This document shows, in pieces, positions 5,726 through 17,218 of a DNA stretch of 64,000 nt. Source of the DNA: Aliarcobacter trophiarum LMG 25534 (lineage in GTDB: Bacteria; Campylobacterota; Campylobacteria; Campylobacterales; Arcobacteraceae); contig NZ_CP031367.1 of assembly GCF_003355515.1 (NCBI RefSeq), forward strand, positions 1,550,001 through 1,614,000. The letters are read 5' to 3'. Position 1 is the stretch's first letter; each line of letters opens with the position of its first letter. The position numbers and the translations under genes are program-made. The notes beneath the pieces were generated by a model. The model was not told the origin of the DNA. It searched no databases and saw only the letters and a program-made list of their open reading frames with translations.

Positions 5726-6109
5726 TTAATTTTTAAAAGCTATTAAATCAACTTCTACTAAAACATTTTTTGGCAAAGTCTTAACTGCAACCGTGCTTCT
5801 TGCTGGTGCTACTTCACTTTTAAAATATTCTGCATAAACTTCATTGAAAGCTACAAAATCTTCCATAGAAGCTAAGTAACAAGTTGTTTTCAATACATTT
5901 TCAAAAGAAGAGTTTGCCTCTTCTAAAACAGCTTTTAAATTCTCCATAACTTGTTTTGTCTGCTCTTTTACACCTCCACTTACTACTTCCATAGTTTTTG
6001 GATCTAATGCAATTTGCCCAGAAGTAAAAATTAACTTTTCAAAGCTTGTAGCTTGGTTATATGGTCCTATTGCACTAGGAGCTTTTATTGTACTTATTAT
6101 TTTTTTCAT
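5726..6109 (-). CDS. ridA: RidA-family enamine/imine deaminase
   Basis: Hydrolyses reactive 2-aminoacrylate and related enamines released by PLP enzymes such as threonine dehydratase, protecting other PLP enzymes. At 127 residues it has the whole YjgF/RidA fold. The N-terminus contains APSAIGPYNQA, the middle FTSGQIALDP, and APARSTVAV supplies the catalytic Arg (residue 104), with Glu119 in VEVDLIAF at the other active-site position. It lies close to two PLP-enzyme genes (4512-5381 and 7927-9033), which fits the function but does not prove a specific link. AAGGATATAAA precedes the ATG. Confidence 0.94.
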   Translation of the reverse strand: MKKIISTIKAPSAIGPYNQATSFEKLIFTSGQIALDPKTMEVVSGGVKEQTKQVMENLKAVLEEANSSFENVLKTTCYLASMEDFVAFNEVYAEYFKSEVAPARSTVAVKTLPKNVLVEVDLIAFKN

Positions 6110-6144
6110 TTTATATCCTTTGATTTTTAAAAAATTTATTATAT

Positions 6145-6924
6145 TTAGTTTTTGCTTTCTTTTACAAAAAATAGCTCAAACTGATTTTTCAGATGAGATA
6201 AAATTGGAGTTTCGCTTTTAAAAAGTCCATTATCACTCATAGAAGCCTTTACAATTGTCTTTGTATATAGATGAATATCATCTCTTTTAAACATCTCATC
6301 AACATTTAACCAAATAGCCTCACTTATCTCCTCTTTATCTTTTATATCTATTTTATAACTTTTTGCTTCTGCTAAACATAATACATACAGATTTGATTTA
6401 TGAAATTGATGTGGATAAAAATGTCCAATAGATACTATTTTTTTAAAATCAGCCACAACTCCTGTCTCTTCAAAAACTTCCCTACTTAAAGCTTGTGAAA
6501 TCATCTCAGCATCATCAATATGTCCACCAGGAAGTTTATAATACTCATTTCTTATCTTCTCTTTGATTAGTAAAATCTCATTTTTACTATTTATTACAAC
6601 AGCTCCAACTCCCAAAGTGTGATTTGCTAAAGTAGGAACTATTGCATTTTCTTTTAGCACTTTTACAAGTAAAATATAATCTATATTACAAGAGTGAAAA
6701 GTAAATCCAAAACTTGTAGCAATAGGAATAAAGTGCGATTTTCTTATATCTATATAGATCCAAATTAGATTTTTATTTGATTTTGTTTCATCTATTAAAT
6801 TTTCAATATTTTGTTGAAACTCTTCAAAACTTCCTAAATCTTGACTTTTTATTGTAATCCCATTGTATGGATCAAGGCTTGTTTTAAACCCCGATATAAA
6901 TTCGATACTTGTATTAATCATCAA
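6145..6924 (-). CDS. NUDIX hydrolase with N-terminal pre-NUDIX domain
   Basis: Two domains. Residues 1-95 form a short alpha/beta region containing IWIYIDIRKSHFIPIATSFGF, which resembles the pre-NUDIX domain of the NUDT6/plant NUDT group. Residues 100-225 are the NUDIX fold, with a complete box at 134-156 (GGHIDD, then Glu140, and REVFEETGV). The box predicts Mg-dependent cleavage of a nucleoside diphosphate linked to another moiety; the substrate is unknown. Its start lies 9 bases after the AraC-family gene stop, so the two are probably cotranscribed and functionally related. The length of 259 exceeds the usual 150-180 because of the extra domain. Confidence 0.88.
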   Translation of the reverse strand: MMINTSIEFISGFKTSLDPYNGITIKSQDLGSFEEFQQNIENLIDETKSNKNLIWIYIDIRKSHFIPIATSFGFTFHSCNIDYILLVKVLKENAIVPTLANHTLGVGAVVINSKNEILLIKEKIRNEYYKLPGGHIDDAEMISQALSREVFEETGVVADFKKIVSIGHFYPHQFHKSNLYVLCLAEAKSYKIDIKDKEEISEAIWLNVDEMFKRDDIHLYTKTIVKASMSDNGLFKSETPILSHLKNQFELFFVKESKN

Positions 6925-9758: not shown

Positions 9759-10115
9759 TTATCTTTTTAGCTCTCTAATTTTTGCAGCTTTACCTTTTAA
9801 TGCTCTTAAGTAGTTAAGTTTAGCTCTTCTTACATCACCTCTTCTTAATACTTCAATAGCTTTTAAAGACTCACAATATAGTGGGAAAATTCTCTCAACA
9901 CCAATATTATTTGCTCCTAATTTTCTAATAGTAAATGTAGCATCAACACCGTTTCCACTTCTTCCAATTACCACACCTTCGAAAGTTTGAACTCTTTTTT
10001 TCTCACCCTCTTTAATCTCAACACCCAATCTTAGTGTATCTCCTGCTCTAAATGCTGGAACTTCTATTGAAGCTATTTGAGCTGCTTCAAAACTTGCTAT
10101 ATATCTGTTTTTCAT
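9759..10115 (-). CDS. rplS: 50S ribosomal protein L19
   Basis: Ribosomal protein of the 30S-50S interface, 118 residues, the normal length. [16 protein letters not shown]-type sequence (here [16 protein letters not shown]) and the C-terminal [14 protein letters not shown] stretch are diagnostic. Its ATG overlaps the trmD stop codon by four bases (ATGA-type coupling), the usual trmD-rplS arrangement. It is the last gene of the pair, ending in a hairpin terminator. In related genomes this pair directly follows rimM, but here rimM lies about 40 kb away. Confidence 0.97.
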
Positions 10116-10789
10116 CGTTTTTCCTTATTAGGTCTATAGTATTTCGTCCTATAAACGGACATCTGAAATTTTAAGTCGCAAATTCTACTATGGTTTCCCT
10201 TTAAATATTCTTTAACCACTAACAAATTTTCAAAATTTTCTGGTTTTGCAAAAGATGGAGCTTCTAAAAGGTTATTTTCATAACTTTCAACTTCAAGAGA
10301 AGCTTCATTTCCTAATACCTCATCAACATTTCTTGCAATTGCATCTGCCATAACCAAAGATGGTAACTCCCCACCTGTTAAAACATACTCTCCAATACTA
10401 AAAACTTCATTTGCATATTTTTCTATAACCCTCTCATCAATTCCCTCATATCTTCCACTTACAAATACAATATGTTTTTTATTAGAAAGTCTTTTTGCAT
10501 CATTTTGACGAAAAGGTTTAGCTGCGGCCAACGGAAAAACTATATAAGCTTCAGGATTTTTTATTTTTATCTCATTAAGACAATCAAAAAGTGGCTGACA
10601 AAAAAGAAGCATTCCAGCTCCTCCACCTATCATTGCACTATCAACTTTTTTATGTTTATTTAATGTAAAATCTCTAGGATTATAAAACTCATAAGAGAGA
10701 AAATTTGCTTCAACAGCCTTTTTTAAGATTGAATCTTGGAAATATGGTTCAATAAGGTTTGGAAAAAGTGTTACAAATGTAAATTTCAA
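10112..10789 (-). CDS. trmD: tRNA (guanine-N1)-methyltransferase TrmD
   Basis: Methylates G37 of tRNAs reading CNN codons using S-adenosylmethionine, preventing +1 frameshifts. SPOUT-class knot motifs are visible: [19 protein letters not shown] and [14 protein letters not shown] start it at TTG 10789, giving [13 protein letters not shown], the usual TrmD beginning; GAGGAG lies 8 to 9 bases upstream at about 10799-10804. An in-frame upstream ATG at 10828 would add 13 residues that do not match the family and would include the Shine-Dalgarno sequence in the coding region. Coupled to rplS by a four-base overlap. Confidence 0.96.
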
Positions 10790-10898
10790 AGCTTTTTTCT
10801 CCTCAATTAAAAGATAAAAGAGTAGCAAAAAACTGTTTTATATCTTATTAAGTTTAGTTTCCTTAAAGTTTCACTTATAATTTATATAAGGAAAAGTT

Positions 10899-11240
10899 TT
10901 GAAAGTTAAAGGTTTTGGGAAAAAGTATTTTACACTTGCTTCAATTCAAGCATACTCAACTAATTCAACATTGCAAAATATCTCTATAGCTTTCAAAAAC
11001 CATTTAGATAAAAAACTTAAACTCTCTAAAGAAAAAGAGGAAGATGAACCACCTAAAGAGTTGGAACTACTTCTATCTTGTTCATCTATTGTAAATAAAC
11101 CTTGTCATTGTAACTGTTTTTTTAAAAGAAAGAGTGCTCTTGCAGTAAGACTTTTTAAATATATTCCTAGATGTCCATTTTATTGTACATTTTTTGCTTT
11201 TAGAAGAACTGGCGTTCATCCTCCTTTAATATCATTTTAG
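10899..11240 (+). CDS. Hypothetical Cys-rich protein, 113 residues
   Basis: I do not recognise it. It starts at TTG, with AAGGAAAAG just upstream and a TATAAT-like element at 10876-10881. The N-terminal half is polar and Lys/Glu-rich with a LELLLSCSS segment. The C-terminal half is basic and has clustered cysteines (CHCNC around residue 70, then CPFYC) and ends in HPPLISF. The cysteine pattern could bind a metal. Its stop codon falls inside the first arm of the structured leader of metE, so it may be a leader ORF as well as a protein gene. No signal peptide. Coding status is moderately supported. Confidence 0.45.
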   Translation: MKVKGFGKKYFTLASIQAYSTNSTLQNISIAFKNHLDKKLKLSKEKEEDEPPKELELLLSCSSIVNKPCHCNCFFKRKSALAVRLFKYIPRCPFYCTFFAFRRTGVHPPLISF

Positions 11241-11335
11241 TATCAACTACTGATACCTTTATTTCTATTTTAGGCTTCATTCTCGAAGCCCTTTAGGCTT
11301 TTGATACTTTATAGTGAATTTTAATTCACACTATA
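11239..11335 (+). promoter_or_regulatory. Structured leader upstream of metE with competing hairpins
   Basis: The 157-base gap before metE holds nested inverted repeats. AGTATCA (11239-11245) can pair with TGATACC (11251-11257, six pairs) or with TGATACT (11302-11308, seven pairs). GGCTTC (11273-11278) pairs with GAAGCC (11285-11290), while AAGCC there can instead pair with GGCTT (11296-11300). A third hairpin with a 2-base bulge spans about 11310-11335. The first arm overlaps the stop codon of the upstream ORF. Mutually exclusive pairings suggest an attenuator or riboswitch-like control. It does not look like a known SAM or cobalamin riboswitch to me. Confidence 0.45.
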
Positions 11336-11397
11336 AAAAGTATTCAAATATTTATGGTTTCTTTTTTTAGAAGGAACCTTTGTAAAAAGGATTAATA

Positions 11398-13659
11398 ATG
11401 TCAAAAAAATATGTATTAGGATTTCCAAGAATTGGAGAAAAAAGAGAACTTAAAAGAGTTTTAGAAGAGTTTTGGGCAAAAAAGGTTGATTTTAATGAAG
11501 TTGAATTTATTTCAAAAAATTTAAGACAAAGGCACTGGACTTACCAAAAAGAGGCAAAAATAGATTTTATCTCATCAAATGATTTTTCACTTTATGATAA
11601 TATGCTTGATACGACAGTTCTTTTAGGAGCAATTCCTAAAAGATTTCAAGGACTAAAAGAGAGTGAATTATACTTTACAATGGCAAGAGGAGATGATACA
11701 AGAGTTGCTATGCAAATGACTAAGTGGTTTAATACAAACTACCACTATATAGTTCCTGAGCTTGAAAAAGATACAAAGTTTTCTTTAAATTCTAAAAAAG
11801 TAATAAGTGAATATAAAGAGGCAAAAGAGCTTGGAATTAAAACAAAAATAAATTTAATAGGTGCAATTACATATTTAGCGCTTTCAAATAGTGTTGATAA
11901 TAGTGATAATTTTTTACATATAAATAGAGTTACTTCTGTTTATAAAGAGTTATTAGAAGAGATTTCAAAACTAGATGATGAAGTTGTTGTGGAGTTTGCA
12001 GAACCATTTTTTGCAAAAGATGTAGAGGTGAAAGTACTATCTTTATTAAAACCACTTTATGATGAGCTTTCAAATGTCTCTTCAAATATAAAAATTGTTG
12101 TAAGTACATATTTTGAACACTCAAATGAAGCTACAAGAATATTAGTAAATACACCAATTTGGGCTTTATCTCTTGATTTCATTTATGGAGAAAAAAACAA
12201 AGAAGTTTTAGATTTAATTTCAAAATCAAATAAAATTTTAATAGCTGGAGTAATTGATGGAAGAAATATTTGGAAAAGTAATTTTGACAAAAAAGTTGCT
12301 CTACTTGAAGATATCTCAAAAACTATTTCAAAAGATAGATTAATAGTTGGAACTTCTTGCTCTTTACTTCATGTTCCATATAGTTTAAAATATGAAGAGA
12401 GTTTAGATAGTGACATAAAAAGCTCTCTCGCTTTTGCAAGTGAAAAATTAATTGAATTAAAACTTATTTCTAAGATATTTTTTAATGAAAAACTATCTTT
12501 AGATGATGAAGCAATTATAAAGAAGAATAAAGATGATATTAAAAAAAGGGAAGAATCAACAAGAGTTCATAAAAAAGAGATACAAGATGAAGTAAAAAAT
12601 CTCAAAAAATTTGAAAGAGCTGATAAGTTTGAAGATAGAATAAAAGTTCAAAGAGAGTTTTTCAAATATGATGCCCTTACAACTACAACAATTGGCTCAT
12701 TTCCGCAAACTATTGAGATAAGAGAAAATAGAAAAAACTATAAATCAAAAGCTATTTCAAAAGAGCAATATGAGAATGAGATAAAAAAATACATTAATGA
12801 TTGTATTGTATTTCAAGATGAAATTGGACTTGATGTTTTAGTTCACGGAGAACCTGAAAGAAATGATATGGTTGAGTATTTTGGAGAGCAGTTAGATGGT
12901 TTTATATTTACAAAAAATGCTTGGGTTCAATCTTATGGAAGTAGATGTGTAAAACCACCTGTAATTTTTGGTGATGTAAGCAGACCAAAAGCTATGACTG
13001 TTGATTGGATTAAATATGCACAAAGTAAAACTAAAAAGGTAGTAAAAGGGATGCTTACAGGTCCTGTTACTATTTTAAATTGGTCATTTGTTAGAGATGA
13101 TATTGCTAGAAGTGAAGTTACAAAACAGATAGCTCTTGCAATAAATAAAGAGGTAGATGATTTACAAAATGCTGGAATTAAAATGATTCAAGTTGATGAG
13201 GCTGCATTTAAAGAGGGGTATCCACTTAGAATAGAAAATATTAAAACTTATGAAAAATGGGCAGTTGATAATTTTAAATTAAGTGTTAGTAGTGCAAAAG
13301 TAGATACTCAAATTCATACTCATATGTGTTATAGTGATTTCAATGATATTATAAAAACTATTGAAGCTATGGATGCTGATGTTATATCTATTGAAACAGC
13401 AAGAAGTGGAAATAGACTTTTAAAAATTTTTAAAGAGACAAACTATAAAAATGAGATTGCTCCTGGAATTTATGATATTCATAGCCCAAGAGTTCCAAGT
13501 GTTGAAGAGATGGTAAATCAGATAAAAGCTTTAATTGAAGTTTTACCAAAAGAGCAACTATGGATAAATCCAGATTGTGGATTAAAAACAAGAAAATGGC
13601 CAGAAGTAAAAGAGAGTTTAAAAAATCTTGTTGAAGCTGTAAAAATAGTAAAACAATAA
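11398..13659 (+). CDS. metE: Cobalamin-independent methionine synthase
   Basis: Transfers a methyl group from 5-methyltetrahydropteroyl-triglutamate to homocysteine. At 753 residues it has both barrels of MetE. The zinc ligands are in place: His642 and Cys644 in HTHMC, Glu666 in ISIETAR and Cys727 in NPDCGLKTR. The N-terminal GFPRIGEKRELKR and the central TTTIGSFPQT are also typical. AAAAAGG precedes the ATG. It is preceded by a structured leader that may sense the cell's methionine state, and ends at a strong hairpin shared with the convergent chemoreceptor gene. Confidence 0.97.
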   Translation: MSKKYVLGFPRIGEKRELKRVLEEFWAKKVDFNEVEFISKNLRQRHWTYQKEAKIDFISSNDFSLYDNMLDTTVLLGAIPKRFQGLKESELYFTMARGDDTRVAMQMTKWFNTNYHYIVPELEKDTKFSLNSKKVISEYKEAKELGIKTKINLIGAITYLALSNSVDNSDNFLHINRVTSVYKELLEEISKLDDEVVVEFAEPFFAKDVEVKVLSLLKPLYDELSNVSSNIKIVVSTYFEHSNEATRILVNTPIWALSLDFIYGEKNKEVLDLISKSNKILIAGVIDGRNIWKSNFDKKVALLEDISKTISKDRLIVGTSCSLLHVPYSLKYEESLDSDIKSSLAFASEKLIELKLISKIFFNEKLSLDDEAIIKKNKDDIKKREESTRVHKKEIQDEVKNLKKFERADKFEDRIKVQREFFKYDALTTTTIGSFPQTIEIRENRKNYKSKAISKEQYENEIKKYINDCIVFQDEIGLDVLVHGEPERNDMVEYFGEQLDGFIFTKNAWVQSYGSRCVKPPVIFGDVSRPKAMTVDWIKYAQSKTKKVVKGMLTGPVTILNWSFVRDDIARSEVTKQIALAINKEVDDLQNAGIKMIQVDEAAFKEGYPLRIENIKTYEKWAVDNFKLSVSSAKVDTQIHTHMCYSDFNDIIKTIEAMDADVISIETARSGNRLLKIFKETNYKNEIAPGIYDIHSPRVPSVEEMVNQIKALIEVLPKEQLWINPDCGLKTRKWPEVKESLKNLVEAVKIVKQ

Positions 13660-13717: not shown

Positions 13718-16627
13718 CTAAAGTTTTGAGCTTAAATACAATATGTCATTTAAGTTATCAAAAATCTTTATTGTTATATCTTCTATCTCTATTGCACTAT
13801 TTTTTAAGATTTTATTCTCTACTCTTTTTGAATTTTGTGTCATATACTCTTGCATCTTTTCATGTAATTTTTGATGGTTTTCTTTTAAAACTTTCCACCT
13901 TTCATCTTTTACAAAAATCTCATTTTTGTCTTCACATAAAAGTATCCATCTCCCCATATTACAACTTTTACAATCTTCTACTTTACAATTCTCATATCTG
14001 TTTAAAAGCTTAAAGTATTGCTTTTTGAAATTTAGATGTTCATTTTTATAAGTTGATATCTCTTTTATTAAATCTACATTTTCTACCATTTCATAATATT
14101 TTTTATCTATTTTTGAAGCTGATGTAATTTGTAGTAATTTATTAGATAAAGCTGATACTTCATTTGATAATCTATCTATATTCAAAGCAGTATCTGCATT
14201 TTTTTGTGTTGTATAATCAAGTTTTGAAACTGTTTCATTTATTTTTACTATTCCCAACTCTTGCTCTTTGCTAAAAATTGTTACATTATGGATTATATCT
14301 TTTGTTTCAGAGATTTTTAAAGCTAGATTTTCATAACCTTTTATCATAGTATCAACATTATTTTTACCATCTATTGTCACAAGATTTGCACTTTCAACCA
14401 ACTCTTTTATCTCTTTTGCTGCTTTTGCACTTCTTGTTGCTAAATTTCTAACCTCATTAGCAACTACTGCAAAACCAATTCCTGCTTCTCCAGCTGTTGC
14501 TGCTTCTACTGCTGCATTTAATGAAAGAATATTTGTTTGAAATGCTATTTGGTCAATTACAGTAATTGCTTCATTTATTGCTTTTACTTTTTTGCTAATC
14601 TCATCCATTGATAAAAAGGTTTGTGATGCATATTTACTTCCTCTTATTGAATCTTGATTTAACTCATCTGATATTTGTAACATTTGATTCATATTCTCAT
14701 TATTGTGTTTAATATTTTGAGTTATTTGTTCTAAAGCAGCTGAAGATTGTTTTAAAGATTGTGCCTGATTTGATGATGAAATAGATAGTTCATTTGAAAA
14801 GTTTGTCAAGATTTTTGTATTTTGTTCAAGTTTTTCTCCAGCATTTGTAATCATAGCAATTAATTGTGAAGAAGATTGACCCAGAATAATAGTTGAATTT
14901 GATAATATCCCAAAATCTCCATACATACCTTTTATATTATTATCATCTTCTTTTAAAATATAATCACCTTGAGCATAGCTATTTAATAAGAGATTTAAGC
15001 TATCAATTTTTAATCTGGTTCTCTCTATCATTTTATTTATAATCTCTACTAATGTTTGTAACTCTTTTGTAGAGGATTTAGTTTTTATTGTATATTCAAA
15101 AAATCCATTATTTACTTTTTCCATAATGTCTGTAATTTCAAGTATAACATTTTTGTCATTCTCAATAATTTTTTCTATCTTTGAAACCTGCACATTCATA
15201 TTTTTAGTCATTAAAGCAAACTCATCTTTTCCTTCTATTTGGTTTAACTCTATCTCATCTTTCTCTTTCATAGAGTAAGAGAAAAACTGATTTAAGTTGT
15301 TTTCAAATTTTTTTATAGATTTTGTAACCTTGCTTGTCATTATTAAAATTATTAAAAATATCAAAACCATAAGTAAAACTAAAGATATTAAGAAAATTAT
15401 AATTTGGCTATCAAGTTTTTTTGTACTTATTTTTATATAAGATAGAGTATCTTCTACTATCTTATTTTTTATATCATCAAAAATCTCTATTTTACTATTT
15501 GATACCTCTTCCCAACTATCTTTATCTACTCCATAAATATTTTTAGAAAGAGTATTTAGTGCTTTTAGAATTTTATTGTCTAAATTTTGTGTATCTTCTA
15601 AATAATCATTACTAAAAGCCTTTGACATATATATATCTATTACAGTTTGAATATCTTTTAAAAAACTCTCTTCCTCTTTTGTATGGTGAAGTTTTTCATA
15701 ATCTTTTAAAGCTCTTAAAATTCTTGTATGATTTTGTTGTATCTTATTTAATATATCTTCTTCATTTGTCAAAATAAAGTCTTTATAGTTATGAATCATT
15801 CCACCATATCCTATATTATCTCTTATGCTATTTAAAATATTATCCTTTTCATTTTTCAAAAATATTGCTCTTCTAAAATCATCTATATCTAAAAATATTT
15901 TATTCTCTAATTTATTATTTAAAAAATTAAGTTGCTCAATAGTTAGGTTTTTTCTTAGTTCATTTATATTTGCGTCTTGAAAAATTATTAAGGAGATAAA
16001 GTTATTATAATTTGCATTTGATATAAAATTTCTATCAAAAATGTTTTTAATTAAATCTGCCTCTTTATATGTTTTTTCTATAATGTCTATTATTGAAATA
16101 TAAGTTTTAGATGCTGCTATTAACTCTTTACTGTTTGAATATATTAAAAGTTCGTCAAAAAAAGATATTAAATTTGATATGCTCTGATTATAAAAAACCT
16201 CTATATCCTTACTGCTTTTTGATAAATCTTCTACCTCTTTTCGTTTTTTATCTATTAGTGAAATATTAGTTTTAAAAATCTCATATTTCTCAAACAGTTT
16301 TTTATCTTTTTTTATCAAATAAAAACTATTTATAAAAATTTCTAACTTCTCTTGAGATAGCTTACTTAGCTCTATCTGATTTTTCAAATCATCTTTTCTC
16401 TTACTACCATAACTATCTATATAATTTATAGATAGCTTTCTCTCTTTTTGTAAATTTTCTAGAAGTTTAGATATTTCAATTGTAAAATTAATATAGCTTG
16501 ATGTTTTACTCATATTTAAAACTTTCTCAACTTTTTCAAAAATCAATACAGATGACAACATAAAAATTGCCATAAGTGGCAAAACCAAAATTAGAAAAAT
16601 TTTGTTTCTAAGTCTTAGCCTATTCAT
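13718..16627 (-). CDS. Methyl-accepting chemotaxis protein with NIT-like sensor and C-terminal CZB domain
   Basis: A 969-residue receptor. An N-terminal membrane helix (about 10-30) is followed by a long helical periplasmic region to about 405 whose LQKERKLSINYIDS segment matches the nitrate/nitrite-sensing (NIT) domain; a later YGGMIHNYKDF stretch is a second sensor-like motif. A second membrane helix lies at about 408-432, then HAMP-like and long coiled regions, then the signalling tip ([20 protein letters not shown]) near 700. The C-terminus is a CZB zinc-binding domain, with His864, Cys889 in CNMGRW, His918 and His922. The ligand is not proved. It lacks a WxxF tail. It is divergent from the DUF350 gene across the 11-bp repeat array. 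Confidence 0.9.
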   Translation of the reverse strand: MNRLRLRNKIFLILVLPLMAIFMLSSVLIFEKVEKVLNMSKTSSYINFTIEISKLLENLQKERKLSINYIDSYGSKRKDDLKNQIELSKLSQEKLEIFINSFYLIKKDKKLFEKYEIFKTNISLIDKKRKEVEDLSKSSKDIEVFYNQSISNLISFFDELLIYSNSKELIAASKTYISIIDIIEKTYKEADLIKNIFDRNFISNANYNNFISLIIFQDANINELRKNLTIEQLNFLNNKLENKIFLDIDDFRRAIFLKNEKDNILNSIRDNIGYGGMIHNYKDFILTNEEDILNKIQQNHTRILRALKDYEKLHHTKEEESFLKDIQTVIDIYMSKAFSNDYLEDTQNLDNKILKALNTLSKNIYGVDKDSWEEVSNSKIEIFDDIKNKIVEDTLSYIKISTKKLDSQIIIFLISLVLLMVLIFLIILIMTSKVTKSIKKFENNLNQFFSYSMKEKDEIELNQIEGKDEFALMTKNMNVQVSKIEKIIENDKNVILEITDIMEKVNNGFFEYTIKTKSSTKELQTLVEIINKMIERTRLKIDSLNLLLNSYAQGDYILKEDDNNIKGMYGDFGILSNSTIILGQSSSQLIAMITNAGEKLEQNTKILTNFSNELSISSSNQAQSLKQSSAALEQITQNIKHNNENMNQMLQISDELNQDSIRGSKYASQTFLSMDEISKKVKAINEAITVIDQIAFQTNILSLNAAVEAATAGEAGIGFAVVANEVRNLATRSAKAAKEIKELVESANLVTIDGKNNVDTMIKGYENLALKISETKDIIHNVTIFSKEQELGIVKINETVSKLDYTTQKNADTALNIDRLSNEVSALSNKLLQITSASKIDKKYYEMVENVDLIKEISTYKNEHLNFKKQYFKLLNRYENCKVEDCKSCNMGRWILLCEDKNEIFVKDERWKVLKENHQKLHEKMQEYMTQNSKRVENKILKNSAIEIEDITIKIFDNLNDILYLSSKL

Positions 16628-16701
16628 TATTTATTTCCTACTTTAATATTTTTAGTAATATATTCTTTATTATTTAAATATGAGTTTAGAGTTTTTTAGA
16701 T

Positions 16702-16745
16702 GTAATTAAGTTGTAACTAAACAGTAATTTAACTGTAACTTTAGG
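16702..16745. promoter_or_regulatory. Four tandem 11-bp direct repeats (putative operator)
   Basis: Four adjacent 11-base units begin with GTAAYT: GTAATTAAGTT (16702), GTAACTAAACA (16713), GTAATTTAACT (16724) and GTAACTTTAGG (16735). A period of 11 bp places every unit on one helix face, as in PhoB/OmpR-type boxes. A TATATT element follows at about 16748-16753, and the DUF350 start is 69 bases from the array end, so activation of that gene is the simplest reading. The array also lies 75 bases upstream of the divergent receptor gene. The regulator is unknown. Confidence 0.6.
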
Positions 16746-16813
16746 ATTATATTTTTATTATTAAAAGTTTTATCTAATAAGATTTAGATAGAATACGCAA
16801 AAAAGGATTTTTA

Positions 16814-17218
16814 ATGGAATTTAGTTTATTTTTAAACTTTTTAGGCTTTTTCTTTACGGCAACTATTTTAGTAATTGCTTTCTTGTATTTATACTCTATA
16901 GTTACACCATACGATGATTACAGTCTTATTTTTAAAGAGAGTAATATTGCAGCAGCTTTAGGTTTTTCTGGAGCAATAATTGGTGTTTCTATACCACTTT
17001 ATAGTGCACTAGAGAATTCAGTATCATATTTTGATTTTGCTATTTGGGGTGTTATTGCTATTATTATTCAATTAGCTTATGCTTTTATAGTTACAAGAAT
17101 CAGTGGAAAATACTCTTTTAATGATAAGATAAATGAAGGTGTTGTTTCTGTTGGTATTTTAATGGCATTTTTATCAATTTGTATTGGTCTTTTAAATGCT
17201 GGATCTATGAGCTACTAA
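16814..17218 (+). CDS. DUF350-family membrane protein
   Basis: A small inner-membrane protein of 134 residues with four predicted helices (about 5-27, 46-66, 73-95, 111-132). The pairs of small residues in the second and fourth helices (NIAAALGFSGAIIGVSIPL and VSVGILMAFLSICIGLLNAG) match the YjfL/DUF350 family, which has internal two-fold repetition. Function is unknown; some family members sit with phage-shock or envelope-stress genes. It appears monocistronic, follows the four-repeat operator, and ends in a very stable hairpin. AAAAAAGGA precedes the ATG. Confidence 0.85.
   Translation: MEFSLFLNFLGFFFTATILVIAFLYLYSIVTPYDDYSLIFKESNIAAALGFSGAIIGVSIPLYSALENSVSYFDFAIWGVIAIIIQLAYAFIVTRISGKYSFNDKINEGVVSVGILMAFLSICIGLLNAGSMSY

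Follow-up and report, generated by a model that had tools for sequence, protein, structure and literature searches.

What does an array of four short direct repeats control when it lies between two divergent genes, and which regulator would bind it? The array in question occupies positions 16702-16745 (forward strand) of the window, the 64-kb stretch of DNA analyzed here, and reads GTAATTAAGTT GTAACTAAACA GTAATTTAACT GTAACTTTAGG, each 11-bp unit being a GTAAYT hexamer followed by 5 bp, at exact 11-bp spacing. On one side, at 16814-17218 on the forward strand, is a gene for a 134-residue membrane protein of the DUF350 (YjfL) family (PF03994, E 1.8e-33), whose members are uncharacterized and are present in some PspA-type operons (PMC11237479). 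On the other, at 13718-16627 on the reverse strand, is a chemoreceptor gene with NIT and MCPsignal domains above cut-off and a weak CZB domain whose 27.2 bits fall a little short of its 29.4-bit cut-off. The preliminary description, made from the sequence, had recognized the in-phase units and the divergent DUF350 and NIT/CZB receptor genes correctly, save for the marginal score of CZB. It had also proposed that the repeats have the architecture of a PhoB/OmpR-type operator. The reading that we consider probable is that the array is a PhoB/PhosR-type operator, which would make the NIT chemoreceptor, and perhaps in this case DUF350 as well, part of a phosphate-starvation regulon.

The intergenic region is 83% A+T, and repeats of this kind might be thought to arise by chance in A+T-rich DNA. 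However, the frequency of GTAAYT in the window predicts, if independence is assumed, about 2e-6 arrays of four units in a genome. A scan of the 1,915,613-bp (1.92-Mb) genome for two strict units 11 bp apart returned three matches, which are the three overlapping pairs of this one array; it occurs once in the genome, and the absence of a second array from the 64 kb, claimed earlier, was confirmed. Among the matches listed when the whole collection was scanned for the four-unit pattern, those found were in scattered, unrelated genomes. The three nearest genomes preserve all four hexamers exactly although the spacer that separates units 3 and 4 has diverged, which points to selection on the hexamers. 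This conservation, with orthologous boxes in several genera, contradicts a chance origin, to which we give virtually no credence.

The pst genes suggest what the array is. The pstS promoters of several Arcobacteraceae genera share GTAAYC-N5-GTAAYY and a TANNNT -10 that begins exactly 15 bp past the last G; within the genus, GTAAYC-N5-GTAAYC is present at pstS in 24 genomes out of 24 compared, and the same or nearly the same motif in 20 genomes of other genera. Summed over the genus, GTAAYCNNNNNGTAAYY is found 140 times, and the reversed control 25 times. Its intergenic matches lie at phosphate genes (pstS, a second pstS, pstC, PHO4/Pit and a Sulfatase-type transferase), with further ones at an EptA/DagK pair and at UTRA-type regulators; many genus-wide matches fall in coding sequence, among them RND-type transporter, purM-like and lipoate-ligase-like genes, and were set aside. 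When the A. trophiarum genome was scanned with a loosened pattern, five full matches besides the array came to light: three upstream of pstS, of pstC and of a gene with a Sulfatase domain and kinship to phosphoglycerol transferase, a fourth ahead of a pyruvate-kinase-like gene and a fifth within coding sequence. A site in the kinase gene (C1:143325), entertained as autoregulation, was dropped because it is coding.

To judge from these positions, the motif looks like the Pho box of Arcobacteraceae. The Pho box of Campylobacter jejuni, for comparison, is GTTTC-based. PHO boxes of the PhoB/PhoR regulon are defined by 11-nt direct repeats with some 6-7 conserved bases, stand at pst genes with a -10 at fixed distance and need no -35, and their consensus varies between species (PMC4415409), so that a sequence unlike the CTGTCAT of E. 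coli is to be expected here, where the units read GTAAYC or GTAAYT. The array shares the direct 11-bp repeats with a conserved core, in four units of exact phase, but differs from the PHO box of that regulon in having four units and in lying between a chemoreceptor and DUF350. The earlier statement that it differs from the known Pho box holds for E. coli but needs correcting for Arcobacteraceae, whose box at pstS, pstC and the second pstS it resembles. The match is imperfect, in that the boxes at pstS and pstC of the same genome are GTAAYC-N5-GTAAYC whereas the units of the window, which have GTAAY and the phase in common with them, have T as the last base; the best pair scores 11.6 with a matrix of pst boxes, a value that random 64-kb sequence often reaches, so that for the window by itself the score is not significant. 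The copy in the window is the weakest link in the case. Assignment of the array to the Pho system rests on its common phase and on orthology, since the relatives' sites at the same place match pst boxes fully.

Which of its neighbors does the operator serve? Upstream regions were scored with a matrix built from pst boxes alone. In a set of 28 DUF350 homologue loci, the array is upstream in four (G000, G015, G022, and G024), all of one clade and all scoring at least 11.2, and the other 24 have nothing like it upstream (best score 2.9). The operator is not conserved with DUF350 homologues, an outcome that the preliminary description had itself named as refuting, and the suggestion that it is a feature of the DUF350 gene has to be abandoned, as does DUF350 as the conserved target. 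By the same matrix, 26 of 27 receptor orthologues with a readable start have a box upstream that scores at least 11.2 (null median -1.3, 99% point 11.5); some of these boxes face the receptor and others are on the opposite strand. In other genera the box is present both at pstS and at the receptor orthologues, and two paralogues, 37-38% identical to the receptor, are without it. The usual divergent neighbor is mscL, which was not found in the four genomes that have DUF350 in this position; mscL was rejected as the conserved target because all three mscL genes located away from the receptor (G005, G012, and G028) have no box. The box stays with the receptor whether the other side holds DUF350, mscL or a co-directional gene, and in G009, G019, and G023 the upstream gene seems to read toward the receptor, leaving the receptor alone downstream of the box. 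On this comparison of DUF350, receptor and mscL loci the operator follows the receptor, its conserved partner, and DUF350 is a clade-specific addition that became its neighbor in four related genomes without mscL. As a separate observation, the mscL upstream regions of many relatives (for example L309, L312, and L316) contain AT-rich ATTATTT stretches past the last GTAAY in 11-bp phase, perhaps degenerate further units.

The geometry of the promoters agrees with a Pho operator. All 43 pstS boxes located have TANNNT at +15, counted from the G of their final unit, and so do the pstS, pstC and Sulfatase-type boxes of A. trophiarum itself. The -10 of E. coli phoA has the same spacing. Boxes that face the receptor have TANNNT at +15 in 21 of 21 genomes, and no other offset between 8 and 25 shows it in more than one of the 21; these genomes (14 of genus g33 and seven of A. 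trophiarum's own genus) are related, not independent, and represent two genera. Boxes facing mscL have no TANNNT at +15. In genus g6, as in the clade of the window, the box points away from the receptor. Here a candidate -10 for DUF350, TATTTT at 16750-16755 on the forward strand, lies at +15 as at pstS; the TATATT that had been noted after the array is indeed present (16748-16753) but at +13, overlapping TATTTT. Since TANNNT has a frequency of 3.8% in the window, the coincidence at a single site has a probability of about 4% by chance, and the spacing toward DUF350 is only suggestive. For the receptor gene, the candidate -10 in this clade is TATATT at 16660-16665 on the reverse strand; it is conserved in sequence in relatives (AATATATTAC) and is placed unlike a Pho-box -10.

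A suitable regulator is encoded in the pst operon, which runs pstS, an EAL-GGDEF-CBS gene, pstC, pstA, pstB, phoU, a PsiE-family gene, an OmpR-family regulator and a kinase. Regulator and kinase have PhoB and PhoR as their best NCBIfam matches, both below the equivalog cut-offs, and form a PhoB/PhoR-type pair. In the whole genome 13 OmpR-family domains pass the cut-off, none of them in the window, and the array could instead serve another regulator of this family, for example an osmotic or envelope-stress one, with a Pho-box-like recognition sequence. That mscL is the commonest divergent neighbor would suit such a regulator, as would the T-ended units and their imperfect fit to the pst boxes. 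We nevertheless regard this as rather improbable, because in relatives this position is occupied by full pst-type boxes with the -10 spacing of pstS, mscL genes apart from the receptor are without the box, and the other intergenic matches sit at phosphate genes. The proposed PhoB/OmpR-type operator is supported by the exact phase and by these orthologous boxes, and the most likely regulator of the array can be named, with fair confidence, as the Pho regulator.

How might such an operator work? Under phosphate starvation, the PhoB/PhosR-type response regulator encoded in the same genome's pst operon would be phosphorylated, bind the 11-bp units head-to-tail and recruit RNA polymerase. As across Arcobacteraceae the operator belongs to the NIT chemoreceptor gene, the receptor would be a Pho-regulon gene, and the persistence of the box beside this gene, and not beside DUF350, suggests that Arcobacter-type bacteria make this receptor when phosphate is short. 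In the window's clade the four units point at the divergent gene, now DUF350, which would probably be activated as well, through a promoter spaced as at pstS; control of the receptor would then be exerted from the array at a distance. Because the array faces DUF350 with TATTTT at +15, both genes may respond, and in this measure the suggestion that one response regulator could tie them together holds as a possibility; we infer either activation of the receptor from a distance or a response of the divergent gene alone. The second alternative, a Pho operator that in this species drives DUF350 and no longer the receptor, accords with the orientation of the array and with TATTTT at +15 in 4/4 genomes of the clade and in none of the mscL-bearing relatives. 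The four related genomes amount to one event, however, and the box is kept with the receptor where there is no divergent gene (G009, G019, and G023), although the receptors there are truncated or broken; loss of control over the receptor in this species seems to us possible but doubtful. In those three genomes (L059-L061) the receptor orthologues are truncated or contain stops and are missing the CZB end, and the upstream box is retained.

What would the receptor sense? A search of PDB sequences with its sensor domain gave chance matches only. The predicted structure of this domain (mean pLDDT 88) has one clear match in the PDB, NasR 4AKK (Foldseek E 1.2e-5, TM 0.52), so that in the model it is a NIT domain by fold. 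The name does not fix the ligand, since the NIT domain of the Pseudomonas aeruginosa chemoreceptor PA4520 bound neither nitrate nor nitrite (PMC6381276). The Arcobacter receptor has the NIT domain in common with NasR and PA4520, and its gene stands in a Pho-type context.

Phosphate-linked chemoreceptors are known elsewhere. P. aeruginosa CtpL and CtpH are phosphate chemoreceptors made under phosphate limitation, and CtpL senses phosphate through PstS (PMC4926252; PMC9864684); the parallel with CtpL lies in control of a chemoreceptor by phosphate limitation, for which in the Arcobacter receptor the evidence is that of its promoter. Within Campylobacterota, the chemoreceptor Tlp2 of C. jejuni affects phosphate taxis and is co-transcribed with phoX; its control by PhosR was stated as not investigated (PMC6250842). 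The OmpR-family regulator of the C. jejuni PhosS/PhosR system, which belongs to a bacterium of the same order, controls pst genes under phosphate limitation (Wosten 2006, cited in PMC9449129). Its regulon is not known to include a NIT chemoreceptor. By analogy, that the Arcobacter protein is a phosphate-taxis receptor is a natural hypothesis. A fuller version, which we advance tentatively and think has somewhat less than an even chance, is that the Arcobacteraceae NIT subfamily is a phosphate-starvation receptor guiding cells to phosphate, directly or via PstS, rather than a nitrate sensor, and that DUF350 was drawn into the Pho regulon in one clade after loss of mscL.

In the literature searched, no Pho regulon described for Arcobacteraceae was found, and the motif offers a usable Pho-box definition for the family. 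It also supplies phosphate scarcity as a candidate stimulus for a chemoreceptor that, going by the name of its domain, one would connect with nitrate. As the NIT chemoreceptor tested in P. aeruginosa did not bind nitrate (PMC6381276), a phosphate-linked NIT subgroup makes the question of the ligand directly testable. Phosphate scarcity is also a first growth condition in which to seek a role for DUF350 in this clade.

Several other loci bear on the wider Pho system. In the A. trophiarum pst operon (L220; C1:139000-155000), the EAL-GGDEF-CBS gene between pstS and pstC (10044-11774 of that locus) might connect phosphate with cyclic di-GMP, and the PsiE-family gene (5979-6386) has phoU on one side and the gene of the PhoB-like regulator on the other. 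A full Pho-type box is found upstream of a gene for a DUF475/TerC-like membrane protein in two genomes (L253 and L276, of G006 and G001, respectively). In four genomes (L277, L300, L251, and L272) a Pho-type box stands about 13 bp before the start of PHO4 (Pit) in reverse orientation, as if arranged for repression.
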